Assembly: GCA_003221635.1 (NCBI GenBank)
Contig: QHSR01000025.1
Coordinates: forward strand, 1-52,488
Source of the DNA: Candidatus Rokuibacteriota bacterium
Lineage (GTDB): Bacteria > Methylomirabilota > Methylomirabilia > Rokubacteriales > CSP1-6
Reading direction: 5' to 3'
DNA length: 52,488 bases
The notes beneath the pieces are model-generated. The model was not told the origin of the DNA. It saw nothing but the letters and a program-made list of their open reading frames with translations, and searched no databases. The translations under genes were made by a program, and so were the position numbers. Positions 11,873 to 52,488 of the stretch are shown one piece after another (the first letter of the stretch is position 1; every line of letters starts with the position of its first letter).

Positions 11873-12271
11873 GCGCCAGAGAAGGCTGGACGGTCGCCGG
11901 CCGCGGCAACGCGGCGGGAGGAAAGTCCGGGCTCCGCAGGGCAGGGTGCTGGGTAACGCCCAGGGGGGGGAACCCCACGGACCAGTGCCACAGAAAGCAG
12001 ACCGCCGTCCCGTCTGTGCCCGCAAAGGGTGGCGGGGCGGTAAGGGTGAAACGGTGAGGTAAGAGCTCACCAGCGGCGCGGGTGACCGTGCCGGCTAGGC
12101 AAACCCCACTCGGAGCAAGGCCAAATAGGGGAGCAATGGCGTGGCCCGCGCCGCTCCCGGGTTCGGCCGCTGGAGACGCCGGGTGACCGGCGTCGTAGAG
12201 AAATGATCGTCAACCCCGGGCCGGGAAACCGCTCGGGGCACAGGACCCGGCTTACAGGCCTTCTCTGGCGC
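11873..12271 (+). ncRNA. rnpB: RNase P RNA, bacterial class A
   Basis: The catalytic RNA that matures tRNA 5' ends. The ends pair perfectly: GCGCCAGAGAAGGC at 11873-11886 with GCCTTCTCTGGCGC at 12258-12271 (P1, possibly slightly overextended). Conserved blocks are in order: GAGGAAAGTCCGGGCTCC in CR-I, ACAGAAA near 11990, GGGTGAAACGGTGAGGTAAG with GAGCTCACC, TGCCGGCTAGGCAAACCCC, AGCAAGGCCAAATAGGGG and, near the 3' end, GACCCGGCTTACAGGCC. The length of about 399 bases is normal. A TATACT box lies just upstream. Confidence 0.96.
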
Positions 12272-40272: not shown

Positions 40273-41310
40273 TTACAGGGCCCGGCCGCGCGACTGGGGA
40301 GCGAGCCCAAACTCCGAGATCTTATTCAGCAACGTCTTGTAGCTGACTTTGACAACGCGGGCCGCCGCCACGCGATTCCACTGCACCTGCTCGAGGACCT
40401 CGGCCAGGGCCTTCCGTTCGGCTTCCAGAGCGCCCCGGCGCCCAATTTCGCGAAGTCCCGCCACGGTTTCCGCGCTCCACGCCACCGAGCCGCCGTCCGC
40501 AGTGCCCGGCCTCACCCCGCTGGGCCGAGGACGAGCCAGAAGCGCTTCGTGGACGTGGTCGTCGTTCGGCAGGACGACCAGCCGCCGAATCACGTTCTCG
40601 AGCTCGCGGACATTGCCTGACCACGGGTGATTCATGAGGAGCCTGAGGATCTCGGGTGAGAGTTCCCTGGCCCGCCGGTACTGCTTGTTGAACCGAGCGA
40701 GGAACGACGACGCGAGGACCGCGATCTCTTCCTTCCGCTCGCGAAGGGGCGGCACGTGGAGCTCGACCACGCTGAGGCGGTAGTAGAGGTCCTCTCGGAA
40801 GGCGCCAGAGCTCAGCGCCTGCTCGAGGTCCCGGTTCGTCGCGGCGATGACTCGCGTGTCGACACGAATGATCTCCAGGCCCCCGACCCGGCAGAACTGG
40901 TGGTCATCGAGGACGTGCAGCAGCTTCGCCTGCAAGGCGAGCGGAAGCTCCGCGATCTCGTCGAGAAGGATCGTGCCGTTGTTGGCGTACTCGAACTGGC
41001 CGACGGTGCGGCGGTACGCACCCGTGAACGCACCTTTCTCGTGGCCGAAGAGCTCCGACTCGAGCAGGTCCGACGGAAGCGCAGCGCAGTTGACTTTGAC
41101 GAACGGGCGTTCACGCCGACTGGAGGCCGCGTGAATGGCGCGAGCCACCACCTCCTTGCCGACGCCGGTTTCCCCACGAATGAGCACCGTCTCGGAGGTA
41201 TCAGCGACGTGCTCGACGACCTCACTCACCCGCCGCATCATCGGACTGTGACCGAGAAGGGATGGATCTTCCGTGAGGCATCGCGCCCCGAGGGTCATGG
41301 ACTGAGTCAT
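40273..41310 (-). CDS. Sigma-54-dependent enhancer-binding protein without receiver domain
   Basis: A 345-residue transcriptional activator. The AAA+ domain spans about residues 15-245. It has Walker A IRGETGVGKEVVARAI, the sigma-54 contact loop ELFGHEKGAFTGAYRR, Walker B GTILLDEIAELP and the arginine-finger region GAFREDLYYRLSVVELHVPP. A Fis-type helix-turn-helix follows at about 300-335 (NRVAAARVVKVSYKTLLNKI). Only about 15 residues precede the ATPase, so there is no phosphoreceiver or sensory domain; control must come from its own expression, a partner protein or a ligand on the AAA+ domain. It sits directly upstream of the sigma-54 gene pair it may activate. Confidence 0.93.
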   Translation of the reverse strand: MTQSMTLGARCLTEDPSLLGHSPMMRRVSEVVEHVADTSETVLIRGETGVGKEVVARAIHAASSRRERPFVKVNCAALPSDLLESELFGHEKGAFTGAYRRTVGQFEYANNGTILLDEIAELPLALQAKLLHVLDDHQFCRVGGLEIIRVDTRVIAATNRDLEQALSSGAFREDLYYRLSVVELHVPPLRERKEEIAVLASSFLARFNKQYRRARELSPEILRLLMNHPWSGNVRELENVIRRLVVLPNDDHVHEALLARPRPSGVRPGTADGGSVAWSAETVAGLREIGRRGALEAERKALAEVLEQVQWNRVAAARVVKVSYKTLLNKISEFGLAPQSRGRAL

Positions 41311-41429
41311 CCTCGCCCCGCTGAGCTCTCCTAGTCCGGGAGGCTCGGATCATGCCATCCTCCACGCACGCTTGTCACGTCGAAACTTTTGCGCAGGCCA
41401 GCCAAGGATTCGGACGCGGCGCCACAGGG

Positions 41430-41580
41430 ATGACCTTCGACGACTATGTGAAATTCACCGTCTCGCCCGAGAATCTCCGCCGCGAGGGGTTCGACATCCG
41501 GCGGTTCAGCTTGGTCCGCCCGCACCTCGACTGGAGCAGGTTTCTCCGCGAGCGCCACGCCAAGGCGCGGCTCACCGACG
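41430..41580 (+). pseudogene. Fragment of a thioredoxin-like family gene
   Basis: The frame encodes GMTFDDYVKFTVSPENLRRE then FDIRRFSLVRPHLDWSRFLR and RHAKARLTDD, the N-terminal 50 or so residues of a family that I recall as short thioredoxin-fold proteins in Rokubacteria-like genomes. The thioredoxin core never follows: after residue 52 the sequence becomes an unrelated Pro/Arg-rich stretch. Upstream residues from 41352 are also unrelated. The start of the kinase at 35881 carries a diverged copy of the same motif. The family name is from memory and needs a search. Confidence 0.6.
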
Positions 41581-41636
41581 ATACGACTAAGTGCTCGAAA
41601 CTACGACCCCGACCCCCTCCAACTGCGGAAGTTGGG

Positions 41637-43217
41637 CTAGCGGACGGCCTGGGGAACGTGCACCTGTCTCGCCCTTCGGGTCAGGCCGTCGCGAGTAGAG
41701 CTCGTCGCACCACACGCTTGACGCTCTCGAGCGTGAAGGGCTTCTCGAGCTGAGGGGCCCCGGTCTGCTCGAGGAATGCCCGGGTGCTCGAACTGAGGAC
41801 ATCTCCGGTGACGAAGACGCTCGAGGTAGAGCTCCGGACCACTCAACACGGGCATGCCACTGTCGCTGATGATCAGGTCGTAATTCTGCGCCGCCAGCTT
41901 CCTGAGCGCGATGGCACCGTTCGCGGCGGTATCGACCTTGTAGCCGTCGCGCGACAACCCCTCGGCCAGCAGCGCCGCGACCGCGGGCTCATCGTCGACC
42001 ACCAGGATGGTCTTCCCGGGCACGGGCAGCGCCGCTTCGAACGTCTCGGGCTCACCGTGTGTGAGGCGCGGAGTTTCCACTGGCAACTCGATGAGAAACC
42101 GGGCTCCCTCACCGGGTCGGCTCTCGACGCTGATGGCGCCCCCGTGCCCCTCGATGATGCCACGCGCCAGGGCGAGCCCGAGCCCCGTACTCTCGCCTTC
42201 GGGCTTGGTCGTAAAGAACGGCTCGAAGATCCGCGCCTGAATCTCCGGAGGAATCCCCGGACCGGTGTCGGCGACCTCGATGCGCACGCGTCGGCTCTGG
42301 ACCTCGTGGCGTGTCAGGAAGCTCAACCGGCGAGGCGCCGAGGCCTCCCGCATCGCCTGCCGCGCGTTCGCGATGAGGTTCACCGCAACCTGCTTCAGCT
42401 GGTGCCCGTCGGCCCACACCAGCGGCAGGTCGCTCTCGAGGTCGAGCTGAACCTCGATGTTGTCGATCCGGAGCTCGAAGGCCAGCAACTCGACCGCGTC
42501 CCGTAGAAGGAGGTTCAACGACACGTGCCCCCGCTCCGGCGGGTGGCGCCGGGCGATCGTCAGGAAGCTCCGCACGATATGCGCGCAGCGTTCCGCGGCT
42601 TCCCCGATCTCGCGGGCTCGTGCCCGGGCGCTGTCGTCGGCGGCCGTGGTCGCAAACAGTCCGACCTGGCCGAGGATGACCGACAGAGGGCTGTTGAGCT
42701 CGTGCGCGACGCCGGCGAGGAGGTTGCCCATCGTCGCCAGCTTTTCCGCCTCGAGAAGCTGGTGCGTGCGCTCCTGGATCTGCGCCTCCAGCGCCTCGTT
42801 CTGGCGGCGAAGATCGCGGTGGAGAAACCGCATCTCCAGCAAGTTGCGCACGCGGAGAAGCAGTTCGGTTTGTTCGAAGGGCTTGGTCACCAAATCGCTT
42901 GCGCCCGCTTCGAGCGCCGCGCGTTTGCTCTCACGCGACACGTCGGCGGTCAGGACAAGCACCGGTAGATAGAGATCGGCCCGCCGCTCCTCGAGCTGTT
43001 TGAGGACCTGGATGCCGTCGAGGTGGGGCATGCGGAGGTCCAGCAGGATCAAATCAGGCTGGAACTCGGCACAACACTCGAGGACCTCGCGGGGGTCGGT
43101 CGTGCTTCTTAGGTTTGTATAACCCACGTGCTCGAGAAGCAGTTCCAAGAGGCGGACCATGGCTTGCTCGTCGTCCACGATCAGGATCTTCGCGCTACGA
43201 AAGATCTCGGAATCCAT
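41637..43217 (-). CDS. Receiver-HisKA-ATPase-receiver hybrid kinase, last receiver frameshifted
   Basis: A soluble hybrid kinase without membrane segments. The N-terminal receiver (about 10-125) has IVDDEQAM, phospho-Asp in LILLDLRMPHLDG and Lys in LVTKPFEQ. HisKA has LAGVAHELNSPLSV (about residue 167), and the ATPase has NLIANARQAM, DTGPGIPPEI and GLGLALARG. The second receiver starts at about 401 with VVDDEPAV and SDSGMPVLSG, but after GPELYLE (near 41820) the frame is wrong. Its proper continuation (VFVTGDVLSSSTRAFLEQTG, LEKPFT) is in another frame ending at 41681. A deletion of about 30 bases that is not a multiple of three explains this. AGGGAGA precedes the ATG. Confidence 0.85.
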   Translation of the reverse strand: MDSEIFRSAKILIVDDEQAMVRLLELLLEHVGYTNLRSTTDPREVLECCAEFQPDLILLDLRMPHLDGIQVLKQLEERRADLYLPVLVLTADVSRESKRAALEAGASDLVTKPFEQTELLLRVRNLLEMRFLHRDLRRQNEALEAQIQERTHQLLEAEKLATMGNLLAGVAHELNSPLSVILGQVGLFATTAADDSARARAREIGEAAERCAHIVRSFLTIARRHPPERGHVSLNLLLRDAVELLAFELRIDNIEVQLDLESDLPLVWADGHQLKQVAVNLIANARQAMREASAPRRLSFLTRHEVQSRRVRIEVADTGPGIPPEIQARIFEPFFTTKPEGESTGLGLALARGIIEGHGGAISVESRPGEGARFLIELPVETPRLTHGEPETFEAALPVPGKTILVVDDEPAVAALLAEGLSRDGYKVDTAANGAIALRKLAAQNYDLIISDSGMPVLSGPELYLERLRHRRCPQFEHPGIPRADRGPSAREALHARERQACGATSSTRDGLTRRARQVHVPQAVR

Positions 43218-43479
43218 GCGATCTCCCTGCGGATGGACCTCGTGAACCGTCGTTCAGCTCGGCGCCCTTCTGGGGAGCGTGCAGGAGCATCGATGATGCC
43301 AGCCAGCCCTCGGACGGCGGTTCGGCAACTGAAGACCTGGAAATTATTCGGAATACGAGCGGCGGTGAGGAGCCAGATCCGCAGGCGCTCGCTGGCCGGC
43401 GAGTCCGAACGAGTCGTGGGTCTGACAGTGCGATGCCCGAATCTGACACCTCCCCGGTGTACGCGGATCGAGAAGGCGA

Positions 43480-43650
43480 CGCGTGGCGGGCGCTTGGACA
43501 TCGACGGCACGAAGATCAAAGCCAACGCCTCGAAGCACCAGACGATGAGCTACGGACGGATGCGTACGCAGGCTGACGCGGGCTACTGGTCTGAGGCGAA
43601 TGTCGGTGCACTCGAAGCCAAAGACTTGCCGGGTCCCCTGGTCACTACGG
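43480..43650 (+). mobile_element. IS1182-like transposase remnant
   Basis: The plus-strand frame reads LDIDGTKIKANASKHQTMSY followed by GRM, then directly ADAGYWSEANVGALE. In IS1182-family transposases the first motif lies near the start of the catalytic domain and the second about 150 residues later, so a large internal part has been deleted. No terminal inverted repeats or target duplications are visible. It separates the hybrid kinase from the GGDEF-like gene and supports past rearrangement. The stretch 43218-43479 around it shows nothing else that I can name. Confidence 0.8.
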
Positions 43651-43702
43651 AGATCGTCGTGGGAAATTCCCTGAGAAGAGGCTCGGAGATCCGTCGGACA
43701 CA

Positions 43703-44182
43703 TCAGGACGCGACGTAGAGCCGGTTGCCGCCATCCTGCTTGGCCTCGATCATCGAATCAACGGCCTGGCGCAGCATATCCTGAGCGCTGGCGGCCGTTT
43801 TCGGATAGCAAGAGCCGCCGGCGCTACAGGTGGTTGTGTCGAGGAGCGCCATCAGCCGGCGAAGGATCGATGGCACGTGGGTTGTCTCCGCCCCTATGAG
43901 GAGAAGGGCGACGGGGGCCGGGGCCCACTGCGCGACCACGTCGCTGCCTCGAATGTCATGCGCGATGGTCTCCGTGAGGGAGGGTCTGGGAGGTTCCCGT
44001 GTCTGGGCGGAGGCGACCTCGACGCTAAGGCACGCGAGCGAGACGCAATAACGCAGTCGTTGAGCTTTCTGCACCTCCAGGTCGACGAGGAATCGAAACA
44101 GCAGGTCGTCGACGACGATCGCTCCGGCGTCGGGGCTGGGCCTAAAACTATGCCATTTGCTCACAATTGGTGCCGCCTGCAC
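43703..44182 (-). CDS. Degenerate GGDEF-domain protein
   Basis: A 159-residue protein with the GGDEF fold but not its catalytic signature. LVDLEVQKAQRLRYCVSLAC matches the N-terminal helix and strand, IAHDIRGSDVVAQW the region just before the active-site loop, and then APAPVALLL replaces GGDEF. The end (SAGGSCYPKT, then DSMIEAKQDGGNRLYVA) matches the C-terminal helix. With the signature gone it should not make c-di-GMP; it may bind c-di-GMP or GTP, or signal by protein contact. The start (GTG 44182) is uncertain. A c-di-GMP riboswitch lies 750 bases downstream. Confidence 0.7.
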   Translation of the reverse strand: MQAAPIVSKWHSFRPSPDAGAIVVDDLLFRFLVDLEVQKAQRLRYCVSLACLSVEVASAQTREPPRPSLTETIAHDIRGSDVVAQWAPAPVALLLIGAETTHVPSILRRLMALLDTTTCSAGGSCYPKTAASAQDMLRQAVDSMIEAKQDGGNRLYVAS

Positions 44183-44453: not shown

Positions 44454-44663
44454 TCAGCGGGACGCGCGCGTGACCAGCCGGCTTTCGCCACAGTCCGAGC
44501 AGACGCCGTACTCCCTGATGTGCGTTCCCGCTCGCCCTGTCTTCACCGCCGCCCGATACGCCGTGGAGGGGTCAATCCCGAGCGCACGGGCAAGGCATTC
44601 GTCGCAGAAGCGACGGGGGCCGTGCGTGATTAAAAACGCCGCGACTCGCTCTTTGGCAATCAT
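44454..44663 (-). CDS. Small protein with two CxxC pairs
   Basis: A 69-residue protein with Cys pairs at FCDECLARAL and VCSDCGESRLV, about 30 residues apart, around a helical segment (GIDPSTAYRAAVKTG). This is a pattern of small zinc-binding, often DNA-associated proteins in proteobacteria; I cannot name the family. It is on the opposite strand to the riboswitch gene. The stretch 44183-44453 between it and the GGDEF-like gene holds nothing I can support. Confidence 0.6.
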   Translation of the reverse strand: MIAKERVAAFLITHGPRRFCDECLARALGIDPSTAYRAAVKTGRAGTHIREYGVCSDCGESRLVTRASR

Positions 44664-44744
44664 CGTGACCCATTCCGGGAGCGGACAGACTCTGAAGGGA
44701 AGAAGTCAGCGCTGAGATCAGAGACCATCCAGCTCGAGGGGCCG

Positions 44745-44761
44745 GTGACACCCAGTGTCAC
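44745..44761. promoter_or_regulatory. Palindrome upstream of the sigma-54/riboswitch leader
   Basis: GTGACAC-CCA-GTGTCAC has 7-base arms. Its centre lies about 152 bases upstream of the predicted sigma-54 start at about 44905, near the distance of the inverted repeat at the other sigma-54 promoter, so it is a candidate activator site. Confidence 0.45.
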
Positions 44762-44826
44762 ATTCGACGTAAGCGTGCGCTTCTGGCATCGGTGGGACAT
44801 GCCGATCGGATCCAGGCAGCGCGCAA

Positions 44827-44851
44827 GTCCCTGCGATTTCCAGATTTTGAG
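44827..44851 (+). repeat. Conserved 25-bp block upstream of sigma-54 promoter, copy 1
   Basis: The block starts GTCCCTGC and ends TTTGAG. It is 23 of 25 identical to 52248-52272. In both places 27 bases separate it from the TGGCAC box. Confidence 0.6.
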
Positions 44852-44878
44852 TTGTGCCTGACCCGACCGATCGCTCCT

Positions 44879-44894
44879 TGGCACCCCGCGTGCA
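44879..44894 (+). promoter_or_regulatory. Sigma-54 (-24/-12) promoter upstream of the c-di-GMP riboswitch
   Basis: TGGCACCCCGCGTGCA has the GG and GC dinucleotides in the correct register. Transcription should begin near 44905, so the riboswitch lies within the first 100 bases of the leader. Confidence 0.8.
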
Positions 44895-44929
44895 AACCCT
44901 TAATTTGCTACAGGGAAGGCCCCTTCTCG

Positions 44930-45008
44930 ATAAAGGCAAACCCGCCGTGAGGTGGGGACGCAAAGCCACGGATCAAGCGAGTCGCTTGATCGCCGAGCTA
45001 CCGAAGGA
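44930..45008 (+). promoter_or_regulatory. c-di-GMP-I (GEMM) riboswitch
   Basis: All core parts are present in order. GGCAAACC is at 44935-44942. The P2 stem CCGCC/GGTGG is capped by a GTGA GNRA loop, and the conserved GGGACGCAAAGCC is at 44955-44967. P3 GATCAAGC/GCTTGATC encloses GAGTC, and the 3' segment GCCGAGCTACCG ends at 45003. A CCCCGA-GAACA-TCGGGG hairpin at 45024-45040 followed by TCTTCC may be the expression platform, and GGAGGG lies just before ATG 45065. It should sense cyclic di-GMP and control the large exported protein; whether it turns it on or off cannot be read with confidence. Confidence 0.93.
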
Positions 45009-45064
45009 AGGGAGACCGAAGCTCCCCGAGAACATCGGGGTCTTCCGCTCAACGGAGGGCCGCG

Positions 45065-47896
45065 ATGTTTTCTGGCGACCGCTCGCTCAGTCGCATCGGC
45101 CGCGTTCTTCTCTTCGCGTTTGTCGCCGCGATCCCCGGTCTCTGGCTCACCGCCAACGCCGCCTCGGCCTTTAGCGATGACCCCCTCGTGCCCCAGAGCA
45201 CGGTCGTCAAGACGGCGCACATCGTGGAGCTCCGGGCGGCCATCGATAGCCTCCGCGTCGCACGCGGGCTGGCGACCTTTGCGTGGACTGATCCCACCCT
45301 CGTGCCGGGCAGCACCCCCGTCACAGTCGTCCACTTGACCGAGCTCCGGACGGCGTTGAACCAGGCCTATCAGGCGGCGGGCTGGACTCTCCCCACCTAC
45401 ACCGATCCCACCCTTGTCGCCCGGCTCACCGTCATTAAGGCCATCCACCTCATTGAGCTCCGCACCGCCGCCACGGTGGCGAATGACACGACACCCCCCC
45501 TGATCTCGGGCGTGACCGCCTCCTCCATCACGTCGGCGGCCGCGACGATCGCCTGGGTCACGAACGAAGCGAGCGACTCGCAGGTCAACTACGGCCTCAC
45601 GACGGCCTACGGCAGTTCGACCCCAGTGACTGCGAGCCTCGTCACCTCTCACCTGGCGACCCTCAGCGGCCTGGCCGGGACCCAGCTCTATCACTTCCGC
45701 GTGCGCTCGCGCGATGCGGCCGGCAACCTCGCGACCTCACCGGACTTCACGTTCACGACGCTCGACGGGACGCCCCCCTCGGTCTCGTTCACCGCCCCCA
45801 CTGCCGGCGCGACCGTCGCGGGCACGGTCACCGTCGCCGCCACCTCGACCGACAACGTGGGCGTCATCGGCGTCCAGTTCAAACTCGACGGCGCCAACCT
45901 CGGCCCCGAAGATACGACTGCGCCCTACTCCATTTCTTGGAATACCAACGGGGCAACCAATGGCAGCCATACCCTCACGGCTGTGGCCCGGGATGCGGCG
46001 GGGAATCAAGCGATCTCTAGTGTGACCGTTACCGTTTCAAATGCCCCCCCACCGCCACCTCCCGCGGGCGGAATCGCAGCACGCTACCCCGGCGATGTCG
46101 GCATCGAGACCGACCCAGATGTAATCTTTGTCGAACAGTTCGAGGACGCCCTGCTCACCGATCTCTTCAATCGGTGGACGGATATCCTCAATGGTTCGGC
46201 GATGTCGTTCAGTTCCGATGTCCCGCCCGGCAGCCCCGGGGTGCGCTCTCTCAACATCCCCTGGGTAGGCGGCGGAGTCAGTAACGGCGGCCATCTCTAC
46301 AAACTGTTGATCCCCGGTGTCAACGACACGCTCTATGTCCGCTACTACATCAAATACCCCACCAGCGGGAAGTATCAGCACACTGGGATCTGGATAGGAG
46401 GGTATAACCCCCCGCTCGCCTGGCCGAACCCCCAGGCAGGCATCCAACCTACTGGGAGTGACAGGTTCTCGGCGTCAGGGGAACAGAACACTACGACGTC
46501 TCGCTTTGAGCATTACGACTATTGGATGAATATGCACCAATCGGTAGACGGCAATTACTGGGGGAACTTGCTCCTCAATGATCCCGACGTGCAGGCCCGA
46601 ACCGGTCAATGGATGTGCGTGGAGCAAATGGTCAAGCTCAATAATCCAGTGATCTCGTTTAACGGCGAGCATGCGCTCTGGCTTGACGGCGTTAAAGTCA
46701 GCCACCTGGGCCAAGGGTTCCCGAATGGCTCCTGGTTGGGAGGCATCTTCACCCAGGATCCCAGTGGCAGCCCCTTTGAAGGCTTCCGCTGGCGGAGCGA
46801 TGCCAACCTCAACCTCAACTGGATCTGGCTGCAGGTCTACGCGTCCGTTGATCCCGCCGGCTTCAGCTCAAGCATCAAGTTCGACCATGTCGTGGCTGCG
46901 AAGAGTTACATCGGGTGCCTCGCGTCGGGTACTCCCGACACCGCTCCTCCGGCAGGATCCATCACGGCCCCGGTCATTGGCGCGACCGTCTCGGGCACGA
47001 CCACCGTCTCGGCCAGCGCGACCGACAACGTGGGCGTCGCCGGCGTCCGCTTCAAGCTCGACGGCACCAACCTCGGCACCGAAGTTACGACTGCGCCCTA
47101 CTCCATTTCTTGGAATACCAGCGGCGTCGCCAATGGCAGCCATACGCTCACGGCCGTGGCCCGGGATGCCGCAGGGAATACCACGACCTCGAGTGGTGTG
47201 ACCGTCACCGTTTCGAACCTCGGTCCACCACCGTCCGGGTGGTCTCATGAACCAGCCGGGTTCGTGCAAGTGAGCAATCAACCTTGGGATGCCCTGTCAT
47301 CGTTGGGTTGGAATCATCTCAACCGAGGCTCTCTGAGCCGCATCGTCACTGATTCCACGGCTCCGGTATCCCCCGCCAACGTTCTCGAACATGTCTATCC
47401 GGCGGGTTTCCCCGGTGGCGTCGAGCCTGCAGTCGACTGGTACTCGCTGCCTTCCGGCTTTACCGAGGGATTCGTGGGTATGTGGTGGAAATCCAGTAAT
47501 CCCTGGCAGGGGCATCCTACCGGTGTCAACAAGATTTACTTCTTGCTCGGCGACACCGGCCACCTCATTCCGATCATGTACGGCCCGCCGGGTGGTCCGT
47601 ACGAGGTGCGGGTTGCCCCCGAATACGGCAACTGGAACTGGCTGACGCCGAATGTCAACCACGTTTCCGTCAGTCTTGGTTCGTGGCATAAGCTCGAGCT
47701 GTACTTCAAACAGACGGGAGGTACGGTTGCGGTCCGCTGGTGGATGGACGGAACGTTGCTCGGGGATTATACGAATGTGCCCTTCTCGAGTACCCTCCAA
47801 GAACTTCAAATTGCGCCGACCTGGGGAGGCCTAGGCGGGAGCAAGTCCGAGAACGATTATTACCGTTACGATCAGGTGTATTTCAGCCGGCCGTGA
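45065..47896 (+). CDS. Large exported multidomain protein (FN3/Ig-like and LamG/polysaccharide-lyase-like domains)
   Basis: A 943-residue protein with a signal peptide (about 12-35, IGRVLLFAFVAAIPGLWL). Three degenerate repeats with DPxLVxxxTVVKxxHIxELR lie at about 38-133. An FN3-like domain (about 140-237) and a bacterial Ig-like domain (238-325) follow, then a Pro linker and a beta-jellyroll-like domain (334-615; FVEQFEDALL, VRYYIKYPTSGKYQHTGIWI). A second Ig-like domain (623-715) and a second jellyroll-like domain (720-943; GFVGMWWKSSNPWQG, LIPIMYGPPGGPYEVRVAPE) end it. The two Ig units are nearly identical even in DNA. There is no anchor, so it is probably secreted, as a glycan-binding or adhesive protein. 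It is controlled by a sigma-54 promoter and a c-di-GMP riboswitch. G+C is lower than in the core region. Confidence 0.85.
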   Translation: MFSGDRSLSRIGRVLLFAFVAAIPGLWLTANAASAFSDDPLVPQSTVVKTAHIVELRAAIDSLRVARGLATFAWTDPTLVPGSTPVTVVHLTELRTALNQAYQAAGWTLPTYTDPTLVARLTVIKAIHLIELRTAATVANDTTPPLISGVTASSITSAAATIAWVTNEASDSQVNYGLTTAYGSSTPVTASLVTSHLATLSGLAGTQLYHFRVRSRDAAGNLATSPDFTFTTLDGTPPSVSFTAPTAGATVAGTVTVAATSTDNVGVIGVQFKLDGANLGPEDTTAPYSISWNTNGATNGSHTLTAVARDAAGNQAISSVTVTVSNAPPPPPPAGGIAARYPGDVGIETDPDVIFVEQFEDALLTDLFNRWTDILNGSAMSFSSDVPPGSPGVRSLNIPWVGGGVSNGGHLYKLLIPGVNDTLYVRYYIKYPTSGKYQHTGIWIGGYNPPLAWPNPQAGIQPTGSDRFSASGEQNTTTSRFEHYDYWMNMHQSVDGNYWGNLLLNDPDVQARTGQWMCVEQMVKLNNPVISFNGEHALWLDGVKVSHLGQGFPNGSWLGGIFTQDPSGSPFEGFRWRSDANLNLNWIWLQVYASVDPAGFSSSIKFDHVVAAKSYIGCLASGTPDTAPPAGSITAPVIGATVSGTTTVSASATDNVGVAGVRFKLDGTNLGTEVTTAPYSISWNTSGVANGSHTLTAVARDAAGNTTTSSGVTVTVSNLGPPPSGWSHEPAGFVQVSNQPWDALSSLGWNHLNRGSLSRIVTDSTAPVSPANVLEHVYPAGFPGGVEPAVDWYSLPSGFTEGFVGMWWKSSNPWQGHPTGVNKIYFLLGDTGHLIPIMYGPPGGPYEVRVAPEYGNWNWLTPNVNHVSVSLGSWHKLELYFKQTGGTVAVRWWMDGTLLGDYTNVPFSSTLQELQIAPTWGGLGGSKSENDYYRYDQVYFSRP

Positions 47897-48027
47897 CCGC
47901 GCCTCTGGGCGGTGAGACGACCTGAGGCTCGTGTCCGAACGACGCGGTACACTGATGCGCGATGCGACTATTGTCGCGGATGCGACCGCGCCCGCTGCTA
48001 CCGGGCGGAACCCTACGTCTCCCACGA

Positions 48028-49827
48028 ATGTCCTCGAGTTGGCGTCTCGCACTGGGGTTGCAGGTGGTGTTCCTGGCGGCGTGTTCAAGTGGAAGCTCTT
48101 CTCCCCCGTCGACAGGTTGGACGCATCAACCCGCTGGCTTTACCGTGTGGACTGACCGAGCCCTCGATGCCTTCACTGGCCGCGGGTGGGCTATCAACAA
48201 TGCGAATGAGCTCGCGACGATTGTCGCGGATCCGGCCGCGCCGCTTACGGCGCAGAATATCGGCCAATGGCGCTACCCTCTAGGGTTCCCCGGTGGGTCC
48301 GCTCCGGCGACGATGTATTACAGACTTCCCTCATTGTTCACCGAGGGGTTCGTCGGAGTCTGGTGGAAGCCCAGTAATCCCTGGCAGGGCCATTCCAGCA
48401 ACGTCAACAAGATCTATTTTCTCTTGGGTGGCGTGTGCGGGAACCTCATTCCCGTCATGTACGGCCCGCCAGGAGGCCCCTATCAGTTGCGTGTCGCTCC
48501 TGAATGGGGAAGCGACTGGAGCTGGCTCACGCCTAACGTCAATGCCATCTCCATTGCGTTAGGAGCCTGGCACAAGATCGAACTCTACTTCAAATACAAC
48601 ACTCCTGGGAAGGCGGACGGTGTCGTCCGTTGGTGGATGGACGGATCCTTGATCGGTGATTACGCGAATGTGTCGTTTCCCACCCGCGGCTGTTTTACCG
48701 AATTTCAATTTAGCCCGACATGGGGCGGTGTGGGCGACGTGAAAAGGCAGACGGATTACTTCTGGTTCGCCCATGTCTACATCAGTTATCCGTCCGCTGC
48801 GCCAACGACCCTGTTCCAGGAAGGCTTCGAAGATGCGAAACTGGCCACCCGCGGATGGTATGGCAACACGACGCCCTTGCTGTCGGCGGAGGAACACGTG
48901 GGCAGTGGTGTGCGTTCAATCGAATATAAATTCCTTACCGGCGCCACCACGCCGACGGCAGGATCGGCTCTGCGCAGAAAGTTTGCCGGAACCGACGCGG
49001 TTTACCTGAGTTATTACGTGAAGTACAGCGCGAATTGGGTGGGCTCACAGAAACTCTACCATCCACATGAATTTCATTTCCTGACGAATCTCAACGATGA
49101 GTGGTCTGGCCTGTCCGTCACCCGCCTGACGGTGTATGTCGAGCAGAACGGCGGCACGCCGCTACTCGCCATTCAAGATGGCGAGAATGTCGACCAGGCC
49201 AGGATTGGAGTGAACCTGGCCGCGGTGACTGAAAATCGCGGGGTGGCCGGGTGCAACGGGTCAAGCGATGGCTATCCAGACAGTTGCTATATCCACGGCG
49301 GCCAGCATGTAAACGAGAAGAAATGGTACGCGGGCGCGCGGTATTTTACCGAGACGCCCGGGCCCTTCTACAAGAACGACTGGCATTTCGTCGAAGCGTA
49401 CGTCAAGTTGAATACGATCTCGGGAGGGAAGGGCGTGAACGACGGGATCATTCAATACTGGTTGGATGGCCAGCCGGTCATCGATCGCCGGGACGTTCTG
49501 CTGCGCACGGGAGCCAACCCGACGATGCAGTTCAACCAGTTCGTCATCGCGCCCTATATCGGCGATGGCTCTCCGGTCACGCAGTCCATGTGGATCGACA
49601 ACCTTACCGTTGGGCGAGAACGCATGACGACCAAGACGACTTCTGGACGGCGTCAACCGCACGACCCTCCAGACTCGTCGGAGGGCCAGGCCCACGGGTT
49701 GTCGCCGACGCCGGCCGGGTTTACCGTGATGCCGAGTGGCGGGACGTTCGGACCCAGTGCTTCCGTCCGTAGCCAAGGAGTCCGAGGATCTCGATGGCCA
49801 TTCGCCATGGAAGAAAAGCCGGAATGA
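48028..49827 (+). CDS. Lipoprotein with two jellyroll-like domains paralogous to the upstream protein
   Basis: About 599 residues from ATG 48028, giving a lipoprotein signal (MSSSWRLALGLQVVFLAAC with an LAAC lipobox). The first domain (about 25-250) is a paralogue of the C-terminal domain of the preceding protein (GFVGVWWKPSNPWQG, LIPVMYGPPGGPYQLRVAPE). The second (about 260-535; LFQEGFEDAKLATRGWYG, WLDGQPVIDRRDV, MWIDNLTVGRER) resembles its first jellyroll domain. The last 65 residues look unlike the rest and overlap the convergent glycosyltransferase gene by 107 bases, so the natural end may have been lost. The frame is open upstream to 47962. Likely an outer-membrane or surface glycan-binding partner; enzymatic activity is unproven. 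Confidence 0.78.
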   Translation: MSSSWRLALGLQVVFLAACSSGSSSPPSTGWTHQPAGFTVWTDRALDAFTGRGWAINNANELATIVADPAAPLTAQNIGQWRYPLGFPGGSAPATMYYRLPSLFTEGFVGVWWKPSNPWQGHSSNVNKIYFLLGGVCGNLIPVMYGPPGGPYQLRVAPEWGSDWSWLTPNVNAISIALGAWHKIELYFKYNTPGKADGVVRWWMDGSLIGDYANVSFPTRGCFTEFQFSPTWGGVGDVKRQTDYFWFAHVYISYPSAAPTTLFQEGFEDAKLATRGWYGNTTPLLSAEEHVGSGVRSIEYKFLTGATTPTAGSALRRKFAGTDAVYLSYYVKYSANWVGSQKLYHPHEFHFLTNLNDEWSGLSVTRLTVYVEQNGGTPLLAIQDGENVDQARIGVNLAAVTENRGVAGCNGSSDGYPDSCYIHGGQHVNEKKWYAGARYFTETPGPFYKNDWHFVEAYVKLNTISGGKGVNDGIIQYWLDGQPVIDRRDVLLRTGANPTMQFNQFVIAPYIGDGSPVTQSMWIDNLTVGRERMTTKTTSGRRQPHDPPDSSEGQAHGLSPTPAGFTVMPSGGTFGPSASVRSQGVRGSRWPFAMEEKPE

Positions 49828-52247: not shown

Positions 52248-52272
52248 GTCCCTGCAATTTCCAGAATTTGAG
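52248..52272 (+). repeat. Conserved 25-bp block upstream of sigma-54 promoter, copy 2
   Basis: It matches 44827-44851 at 23 of 25 positions and lies 27 bases before the TGGCAC box, the same spacing as in copy 1. Confidence 0.6.
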
Positions 52273-52299
52273 CGCTCTGAGCCGGTGCCGCCCGGGACC

Positions 52300-52315
52300 T
52301 GGCACCCCCTCTGCA
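52300..52315 (+). promoter_or_regulatory. Sigma-54 (-24/-12) promoter, copy 2
   Basis: TGGCACCCCCTCTGCA keeps GG and GC in register. Transcription should start near 52326 and read into the partial gene at the window end. Confidence 0.75.
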
Positions 52316-52357
52316 GGGAATACCCGTAACAGAAGAGACGTCAGAGACCTCGTTTGC

Positions 52358-52416
52358 CCGGGGCCACCCGTCGCGAGACGAGCGCGGGGTCAGCGCCTGA
52401 CAGCCGGGCTACCGAA
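52358..52416 (+). promoter_or_regulatory. Degenerate c-di-GMP-I riboswitch-like leader
   Basis: Aligned with the intact copy, GGCCACCC stands where GGCAAACC should be, the P2 hairpin survives (CGTC-GCGA-GACG with a GNRA loop), P3 survives (GTCAG/CTGAC) and the 3' segment reads AGCCGGGCTACCG. The conserved GGGACGCAAAGCC stretch is missing. It should no longer bind c-di-GMP in the normal way. Confidence 0.6.
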
Positions 52417-52475
52417 AGATGGGAGAGGAGATCTCCCGGGGAAGATCGGGGTCTTCCGCTCAACGGAGGGCCACG

Positions 52476-52488
52476 ATGTTTTCCGGCG
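52476..52488 (+). CDS. Start of a paralogue of the riboswitch-controlled exported protein, cut by window end
   Basis: Only ATG and three further codons are inside the window (MFSG), identical to the first four residues of the protein at 45065. GGAGGG lies before the ATG, and the preceding 30 bases are nearly identical to those at 45041-45064. This implies another member of the exported protein family under the second sigma-54 leader. Confidence 0.6.

Follow-up and report, generated by a model that had tools for sequence, protein, structure and literature searches.

A sigma-54-type promoter box before c-di-GMP-I riboswitches of exported-protein genes in a Candidatus Rokuibacteriota bacterium and its class: a probable two-input arrangement

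The unit and its surroundings

The window, i.e. the whole stretch of 52,488 nucleotides that was analysed, carries on its forward strand a c-di-GMP-I riboswitch aptamer at positions 44926-45006. This aptamer is recognized by RF03167 with 71.9 bits (cmscan; gathering score 59) and, one base earlier in the coordinates of the tool, by RF01051 with 69.8 bits against a cut-off of 35. An earlier note on this DNA had claimed an intact GEMM riboswitch and had proposed a search with RF01051, and both scores bear it out. The RF03167 model is matched over its full length (1-80) with no broken pair marked, and the P1/P2/P3 architecture is present. At a single base the consensus of RF03167 has G (GACGCGAA) and the window has A (GACGCAAA), so that the stretch GACGCGAAg of the model reads GACGCAAAG in the window. 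In the variant name c-di-GMP-I-GGC, "GGC" presumably refers to the G that replaces the first A of GACGCAAAG. Because of this A, the aptamer is filed, as judged from its sequence, as an ordinary c-di-GMP-I aptamer at that base despite the higher RF03167 score. Its probable ligand is c-di-GMP. Elsewhere in the window, a class A RNase P RNA is found at 11878-12270 (291.8 bits).

Directly upstream of the aptamer, a -24/-12 box of the sigma-54 type is located at 44878-44894 on the forward strand (TTGGCACCCCGCGTGCA, i.e. TTGGCAC-N6-TGCA), in which GG (44880-44881) and GC (44892-44893) are separated by exactly 10 bases. This agrees with the claim of a sigma-54 promoter directly 5' of the intact aptamer, as the box follows the form TGGCAC...TGC(A/T) with GG-N10-GC. 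The claimed distance of 25-30 bases between start and aptamer has to be corrected, since a start 12 nt past GC is predicted at about 44905, approximately 21 nt 5' of the aptamer. No sigma-70-like site was found in 44600-45150. Pattern match, N10 spacing, and recurrence in relatives (see below) suggest that the box is used by sigma-54. Farther upstream on the same strand lie a GTGACACCCAGTGTCAC dyad at 44745-44761, which is a candidate upstream activator (enhancer) site according to the enrichment of TGTCA half-sites, and a GCGATTTCCAGATTTTGAG element at 44833-44851, which recurs 43-46 bp before the box in relatives.

The start codon at 45065, 58 nt past the end of the aptamer, opens a forward-strand gene (45065-47896) for a 943-aa protein with a signal-peptide-like start, HxxELR repeats, two Ig stretches of the Big_7 type, and a stretch with weak similarity to fn3. 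These features are consistent with the exported multidomain protein of 943 residues described before, and the proposal of two gates acting on one gene likewise finds its elements here, as a putative sigma-54 box and an intact aptamer precede a single gene for a predicted exported protein. The HxxELRxA repeats (window 45164-45484, residues ~34-140) are without a Pfam match, and their pattern occurs in 7 of the 93 proteins that were scanned downstream of aptamers. The gene is adjoined by a second forward-strand gene (47962-49827), whose 621-aa product matches a polysaccharide-lyase-type domain and, over 227 aa, shares 56% identity with the C-terminal domain of the 943-aa protein. From their arrangement, both genes may possibly share one transcript.

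A second, decayed unit lies on the forward strand at 52255-52488 and runs to the end of the contig. It contains the ATTTCCAGA element, which is present in the window at 44833-44851 and at 52255-52272, as well as a box at 52300-52315 and a near-identical platform at 52448-52478 (identical over 28 bases) with a start codon at 52476. An intact aptamer at this position was considered and rejected, as Rfam gives 11.8 bits, which indicates a remnant. Another aptamer remnant behind a sigma-54 box was recognized by eye near 1500-1620 of a different contig of the genome (L170, G000:C152), and both remnants are below the Rfam cut-off. The decayed unit of the window represents a natural loss of the aptamer with box, platform, and start codon kept, which makes it comparable with the intact unit.

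The genome encodes rpoN (one Sigma54_DBD match, E 1.5e-60), and the sigma-54 activator domain is matched 35 times, in 24 cases below 1e-50. Weak matches to this domain are unspecific because the family also gives matches in all 14 control genomes. One of the activators is encoded in the window on the reverse strand at 40273-41310 (AAA+ domain and Fis-type HTH, activator-domain match below 1e-50); an N-terminal sensory domain was not found in this protein. It belongs to a reverse-strand stretch (40273-44182) immediately 5' of the unit, which also encodes a histidine kinase bearing two receiver domains and a short GGDEF-like protein of degenerate sequence. In the genus, such short activators are present in several copies per genome, and close paralogues of the one in the window (about 62-69% identical) are scattered over many contigs. 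Apart from the window, short activators and aptamers were found together on the contigs G008:C89 and G004:C93, separated by 10 kb and 27 kb, respectively. This association was judged too loose to assign the activator at 40273-41310 to the unit, and the activator is retained as a candidate regulator.

Recurrence of box and aptamer in the genome, the class, and beyond

A profile search revealed four further aptamers in the genome, and all five are preceded by a box of the form TGGCAC-N6-TGCA, 26-42 nt ahead. The strict pattern TGGCACN6TGCW occurs 41 times on both strands of 5.17 Mb and its reversed control pattern 91 times. The pattern is therefore without genome-wide enrichment. As only 41 sites exist in 5.17 Mb and five of them directly precede the five aptamers, this coincidence is far beyond chance.

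For the class, a search of 148 genomes yielded 137 matches in 59 genomes. Of these matches 134 were used; G146:C1:728532 was left out as a tandem neighbour, and G098 and G050:C626 because they fell below the cut-off, but G005:C740, likewise below it, was kept. For box counts, locus L013 was dropped for its short upstream sequence, giving n=114 class aptamers. A box, defined by a simple scoring rule of our own as a score of at least 8 within 100 bp, precedes 102 of these 114 aptamers and is missing before 12. By rank, it was found before 5/5 aptamers of the genome itself, 19/20 of the genus, 64/70 of the family, 1/3 of the order, and 13/16 of the class, and 45 of the 49 class genomes with a scored aptamer have at least one boxed aptamer. 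The motif TGGCR...TGC is present at the GG-N10-GC spacing in 74/114 cases and at eight other spacings in 0-2, and the median distance from box to aptamer is 28 nt. Around GG and GC, the 102 boxes show T in 85%, C in 96%, A in 87%, C in 69%, and T in 96%, percentages that are partly built in because the box score used those positions. The upstream regions are not mutual copies: for 100 of the 102, fewer than 25% of the 10-mers recur in any other region that was kept. A pattern scan of named genomes with N5 instead of N6, which serves as a shifted control, gave five contigs. An aptamer that exceeds the cut-off is present on only one of them, from a gammaproteobacterial MAG, and a correctly spaced box was absent within 110 bp of that aptamer.

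Upstream of the boxes, 102 regions of 220 bp contain 104 copies of the half-sites TGTCA/TGACA, i.e. 1.02 per region, compared with backgrounds per 220 bp of 0.21 farther upstream and 0.11 inside genes. The majority (80/104) are concentrated 180-100 bp before the -24 element, and only 30/102 regions have two or more. Activators of sigma-54 usually bind about 100-180 bp upstream of the -24 element, and the half-sites are a candidate enhancer on this evidence. The ATTTCCAGA element is present in 14 of the 102 upstream regions, 13 times at 43-46 bp before the box, in loci that span several genera, and once at 62 bp.

A wider aptamer search matched 108 of 388 genomes. From these, a sample of 81 aptamers from 37 genomes outside the class was taken among the matches listed, with match-rich genomes represented by some of their matches. 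A box precedes 13 of these 81 aptamers, in eight genomes, and with a relaxed motif the N10 spacing was found in 10/81 and other spacings in 0-1, again among the matches listed. The same listed matches comprise 24 aptamers from ten genomes without rpoN, i.e. genomes missing from the matched genomes of the rpoN search, none of which has a box, and 44 aptamers from 22 genomes with rpoN, 11 of which do (Fisher one-sided p = 0.005). Five distant genomes outside the rpoN search, with boxes before 2/13 listed aptamers, were left out of this contrast. Within the class, an rpoN match was absent from two genomes with boxed aptamers, G007 and G029, which are 87% and 81% complete. Searches outward from single distant genomes returned 1-7 genomes each. 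The same pairing was observed in distant genomes at L205, L215, and L235 (G161), L216, L232, and L242 (G336), L132 and L133 (G136), L176 (G149), and L179 (G150). With 13/81 boxes among the listed matches outside, the pairing is not unique to the class and is a near-rule only there. The earlier note had regarded the combination as uncommon for this type of protein, a view that does not hold for this class in the face of 102/114 aptamers in 45/49 genomes; the combination also recurs in some other phyla (13/81 listed aptamers). The pairing is a design common to many genes and not a property of one odd gene.

These counts also decide between explanations of the box itself. That an aptamer happens to lie beside a random GG-N10-GC might be considered since boxes with a score of at least 8 occur in 0-4% of control windows of 100 bp and in 12.5% of one small control (48 farther-upstream windows of class-level genomes), but with 102/114 in the class at a strict N10 spacing and 5/5 in the genome, chance retains practically no probability and was rejected. 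A second explanation holds that the -24/-12-like sequence is an RNA hairpin of the form GCAC...GTGC and that the real start lies farther upstream. The box in the window indeed reads GCAC-N5-GTGC and could pair, but such a dyad is present in only 25/102 boxes (14/24 in the genome and genus, 11/78 elsewhere), the box is absent before the 24 listed aptamers of the ten rpoN-less genomes, and the spacing is strict. This origin was likewise rejected and is considered very improbable. That a sigma-54 box and a c-di-GMP-I aptamer form a two-input arrangement is held with high confidence.

Of the proteins encoded downstream of class aptamers, 101 were extracted (some clipped by contig ends) and 93 were scanned. 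Domain matches comprise fn3 (27), Big_7 (20), response-regulator receiver (12), sigma-54 activator (3), and glycosyltransferase family 2 (3). According to a simple rule of our own, 66/93 have an exported-type N-terminus, compared with 4/48 control ORFs in the window, which are SD-preceded reading frames and not confirmed genes. A similarly simple pilin pattern identified two clear and two weaker type IV pilin-like starts among the 93. Each genome has units before one to nine genes, and some unit copies run into a similar MFSG-like protein start. As predicted from sequence, exported proteins prevail among the targets and often carry Ig or fn3 domains; type IV pilin-like proteins and response regulators are found as well.

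The expression platform and a proposed mechanism

Between aptamer and gene, three helices have to be considered, all on the forward strand. The stretch 44913-44929, made up of leader tail and P1 5' strand, can pair with 45027-45046 to form a helix termed P0; alternatively, its part 44921-44927 pairs with the 3' strand of P1 (GGAAGGG, 45006-45012), as supported by covariation. A platform hairpin (45028-45072), predicted by folding and covariation, pairs the anti-SD strand GGGGUCUUCCG with the Shine-Dalgarno (SD) region GGAGGGCC at 45054-45061 and with the start codon. In structure and covariation, this corresponds to SD sequestration, in which the SD pairs with an anti-SD strand and excludes a second helix that is tied to the aptamer.

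The platform was analysed in those 81 class loci whose SD and start are clear; their start codon lies mostly 50-70 nt past the aptamer. The SD hairpin is more stable with its own than with swapped partners (-21.2 vs -16.2 kcal/mol), as is P0, i.e. leader tail with platform (-15.4 vs -13.3 kcal/mol), and both beat 2000 of 2000 permutations. In contrast, a control pairing of the tail with the SD arm had no preference for its own partner, as 1942/2000 permutations were as strong or stronger. For covariation, 45 of the 81 loci, chosen by a start distance of 50-66 and by aptamer start, were aligned with MAFFT, which misplaces some columns. In this alignment, 75.5% of cells are paired in the SD hairpin (71.5 in shuffles), 78.5% in P0 (74.7), and 94.9% in P1 (91.0). 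For all three helices, paired cells and covariation score were reached by 0/500 shuffles and were highest at the true register, measures that can be inflated by the relatedness of the 45 loci. In two of the five measures, neither P0 nor the SD hairpin is exceptional: 164 (P0) and 161 (SD hairpin) of 500 shuffles had as many pairs in which both sides had changed, and 194 and 45, respectively, had as many further pair types. Slid registers of both helices sometimes had more such pairs than the true one.

P0 spans the 5' strand of P1 in most of the 81 loci, with a median overlap of 7 nt. The first five bases of the aptamer have an exact complement in their own platform in 36/81 loci, and the same complement occurs in platforms of loci with a different five in 548/5104 comparisons (11%). 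In detail, CGGGA is found in 19/25 UCCCG loci and also in 9/20 UCUCG loci, where pairing would persist as G-U; CGAGA occurs in 6/20 UCUCG loci but is absent from the other five main classes, and CGGAA in 9/20 UUCCG and 1/3 UUCCC loci. Because the inner part of P0 follows the first five aptamer bases, P0 and P1 are mutually exclusive at least in part. The anti-SD strand in turn is common to P0 and the SD hairpin.

When the window RNA is truncated at 45062, the calculated openness of the SD is 0.65 when folded freely and 0.014 with aptamer and P1 forced, with P1 in a register one base off; when only the 7-pair P1 is forced, it decreases from 0.85 to 0.31. In the full-length RNA, the SD hairpin wins with or without P1, so the switch would have to act during RNA synthesis. 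Among the 81 loci, SD openness drops by more than 0.1 in 19 once P1 is forced; it increases in 9 and hardly changes in 53. On account of this mixed result we infer the direction of the switch rather than read it from folding. A different design is seen in a sister unit of the genome (L002, G000:C69, 1501-1600), in which an SD-like GGAGAGG lies inside the P1 3' strand and ATG follows 13 nt past the aptamer, a shorter and direct OFF design.

From these elements, the following mechanism is proposed. An NtrC-type activator, probably bound to the TGTCA half-sites that lie some 100-180 bp ahead of the -24 element, would drive sigma-54 RNA polymerase at the -24/-12 box, and the RNA would start only about 20 nt before the c-di-GMP-I aptamer. 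Without c-di-GMP, leader tail and P1 5' strand would pair with the platform as P0, which would capture the anti-SD strand and leave SD and start codon open. With c-di-GMP, P1 would form at the expense of P0, and the anti-SD strand freed from P0 would close the SD/start-codon hairpin, so that translation would fall. This chain (P1 on, P0 off, SD hairpin on) makes c-di-GMP an OFF signal for translation, a direction that is held with somewhat better than even confidence. The full two-input explanation including mechanism is regarded as probable.

Two alternatives concern the platform. The opposite sign, in which c-di-GMP opens translation, was the first reading and was demoted to a rival once P0 proved to overlap P1. 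Here, the leader tail would otherwise be held in a hairpin with the P1 5' strand, and formation of P1 would free it to capture the anti-SD strand. Columns 7-14, which form the outer part of P0, hardly overlap with P1 (columns 14-20) and could coexist with it, which would allow the opposite sign; leader-tail hairpins such as GGGAAG/CUUCUC are predicted in many of the 40 loci listed, and the nine loci with rising SD openness point the same way. Against this, columns 19-22 in the conserved interior of P0 do overlap with P1, the window calculation gives OFF, and loci with falling openness outnumber rising ones by 19 to nine. The opposite sign is unlikely, albeit far from negligible. Considerably less probable is a transcription attenuator with the SD hairpin as terminator. 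One terminator-like site (45039-45061, tail GCGATGTTTT; shuffles average 0.4) is consistent with it, but the SD hairpin as the only candidate has just four T in a row, which lie past the AUG and by eye are lost in many relatives, and its arm pairs with SD and AUG with covariation. Several distant loci among the listed matches outside the class have, by eye, a stem and a long T-run 3' of the aptamer, and the two types look different. Since the platform is a hairpin of SD and start codon and a terminator with a long U-run is missing, translational control is most likely. The earlier note had left open whether c-di-GMP decides continuation or translation, and of these translation is the most likely one.

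Significance and known systems

If the preferred two-input reading with OFF control of translation is correct, most c-di-GMP-I riboswitches of the class would follow one stereotyped two-key design with narrow spacing between promoter and aptamer and usually also between aptamer and start codon. Owing to the pairing of box and aptamer, two signals probably have to agree before the cell surface is changed, and the proteins are predicted to be silent unless the activator is on and, in the OFF reading, c-di-GMP is low. About 100 natural variants could reveal the rules of an SD-type c-di-GMP switch. More tentatively, and with a little less than even confidence, the unit may be viewed as a portable cassette that was block-copied before unrelated genes for exported proteins, pilins, and regulators across the class. 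Its parts would be the enhancer half-sites, the ATTTCCAGA element in a subset, the sigma-54 box, the c-di-GMP-I aptamer, and the SD switch. In this case, nearly every c-di-GMP-I riboswitch found in the class would be wired to sigma-54, and the cell exterior would be set only when activator signal and c-di-GMP level agree.

Control of pilin genes by PilR and sigma-54 combines an activator and a sigma-54 box with TGTC-like half-sites. The units described here have a comparable box and candidate half-sites for a putative activator, and some of the downstream proteins are type IV pilin-like; to our knowledge, PilR/sigma-54 pilin systems contain no riboswitch. FleQ, a regulator related to sigma-54 activators, reads c-di-GMP. 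It resembles the present units in joining c-di-GMP to sigma-54-type regulation of surface genes and differs in that c-di-GMP is read there by a protein and here probably by an RNA.

Both parts of the unit are thus of known kinds, and their class-wide pairing with an SD-type platform appears to be new. A sigma-54 promoter joined to a c-di-GMP riboswitch was not found among the matches listed in the literature searched, which lay mostly outside subscription papers and preprints, nor in the available portions of PMC12316311, PMC13194489, PMC2700814, PMC12452182, PMC8835794, PMC2725144, PMC2996986, and PMC3162934. In the accessible text on the RpoN regulon of G. sulfurreducens (PMC2725144), the terms riboswitch, c-di-GMP, and cyclic are absent. 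Sigma-54 has been described as a controller of the bacterial exterior (PMC3162934). As far as the available text of that work extends, it has in common with the present units that surface-shaping genes are, here putatively, under sigma-54, and its main text is without the word riboswitch, whereas a second, RNA-level gate would follow the promoter here. In Geobacter, GEMM riboswitches (c-di-GMP-I/cGAMP) precede outer-surface fibronectin-III proteins and cytochromes, according to the accessible parts of PMC2996986, PMC13194489, and PMC2700814. In the same parts of these sources a sigma-54 promoter is not reported, whereas the putative one described here is present; aptamer family, several copies per genome, and downstream surface proteins with fn3 domains are alike. 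As regards the targets, the Geobacter GEMM riboswitches before fibronectin-III surface proteins, as described in the available part of PMC2996986, are the nearest precedent.
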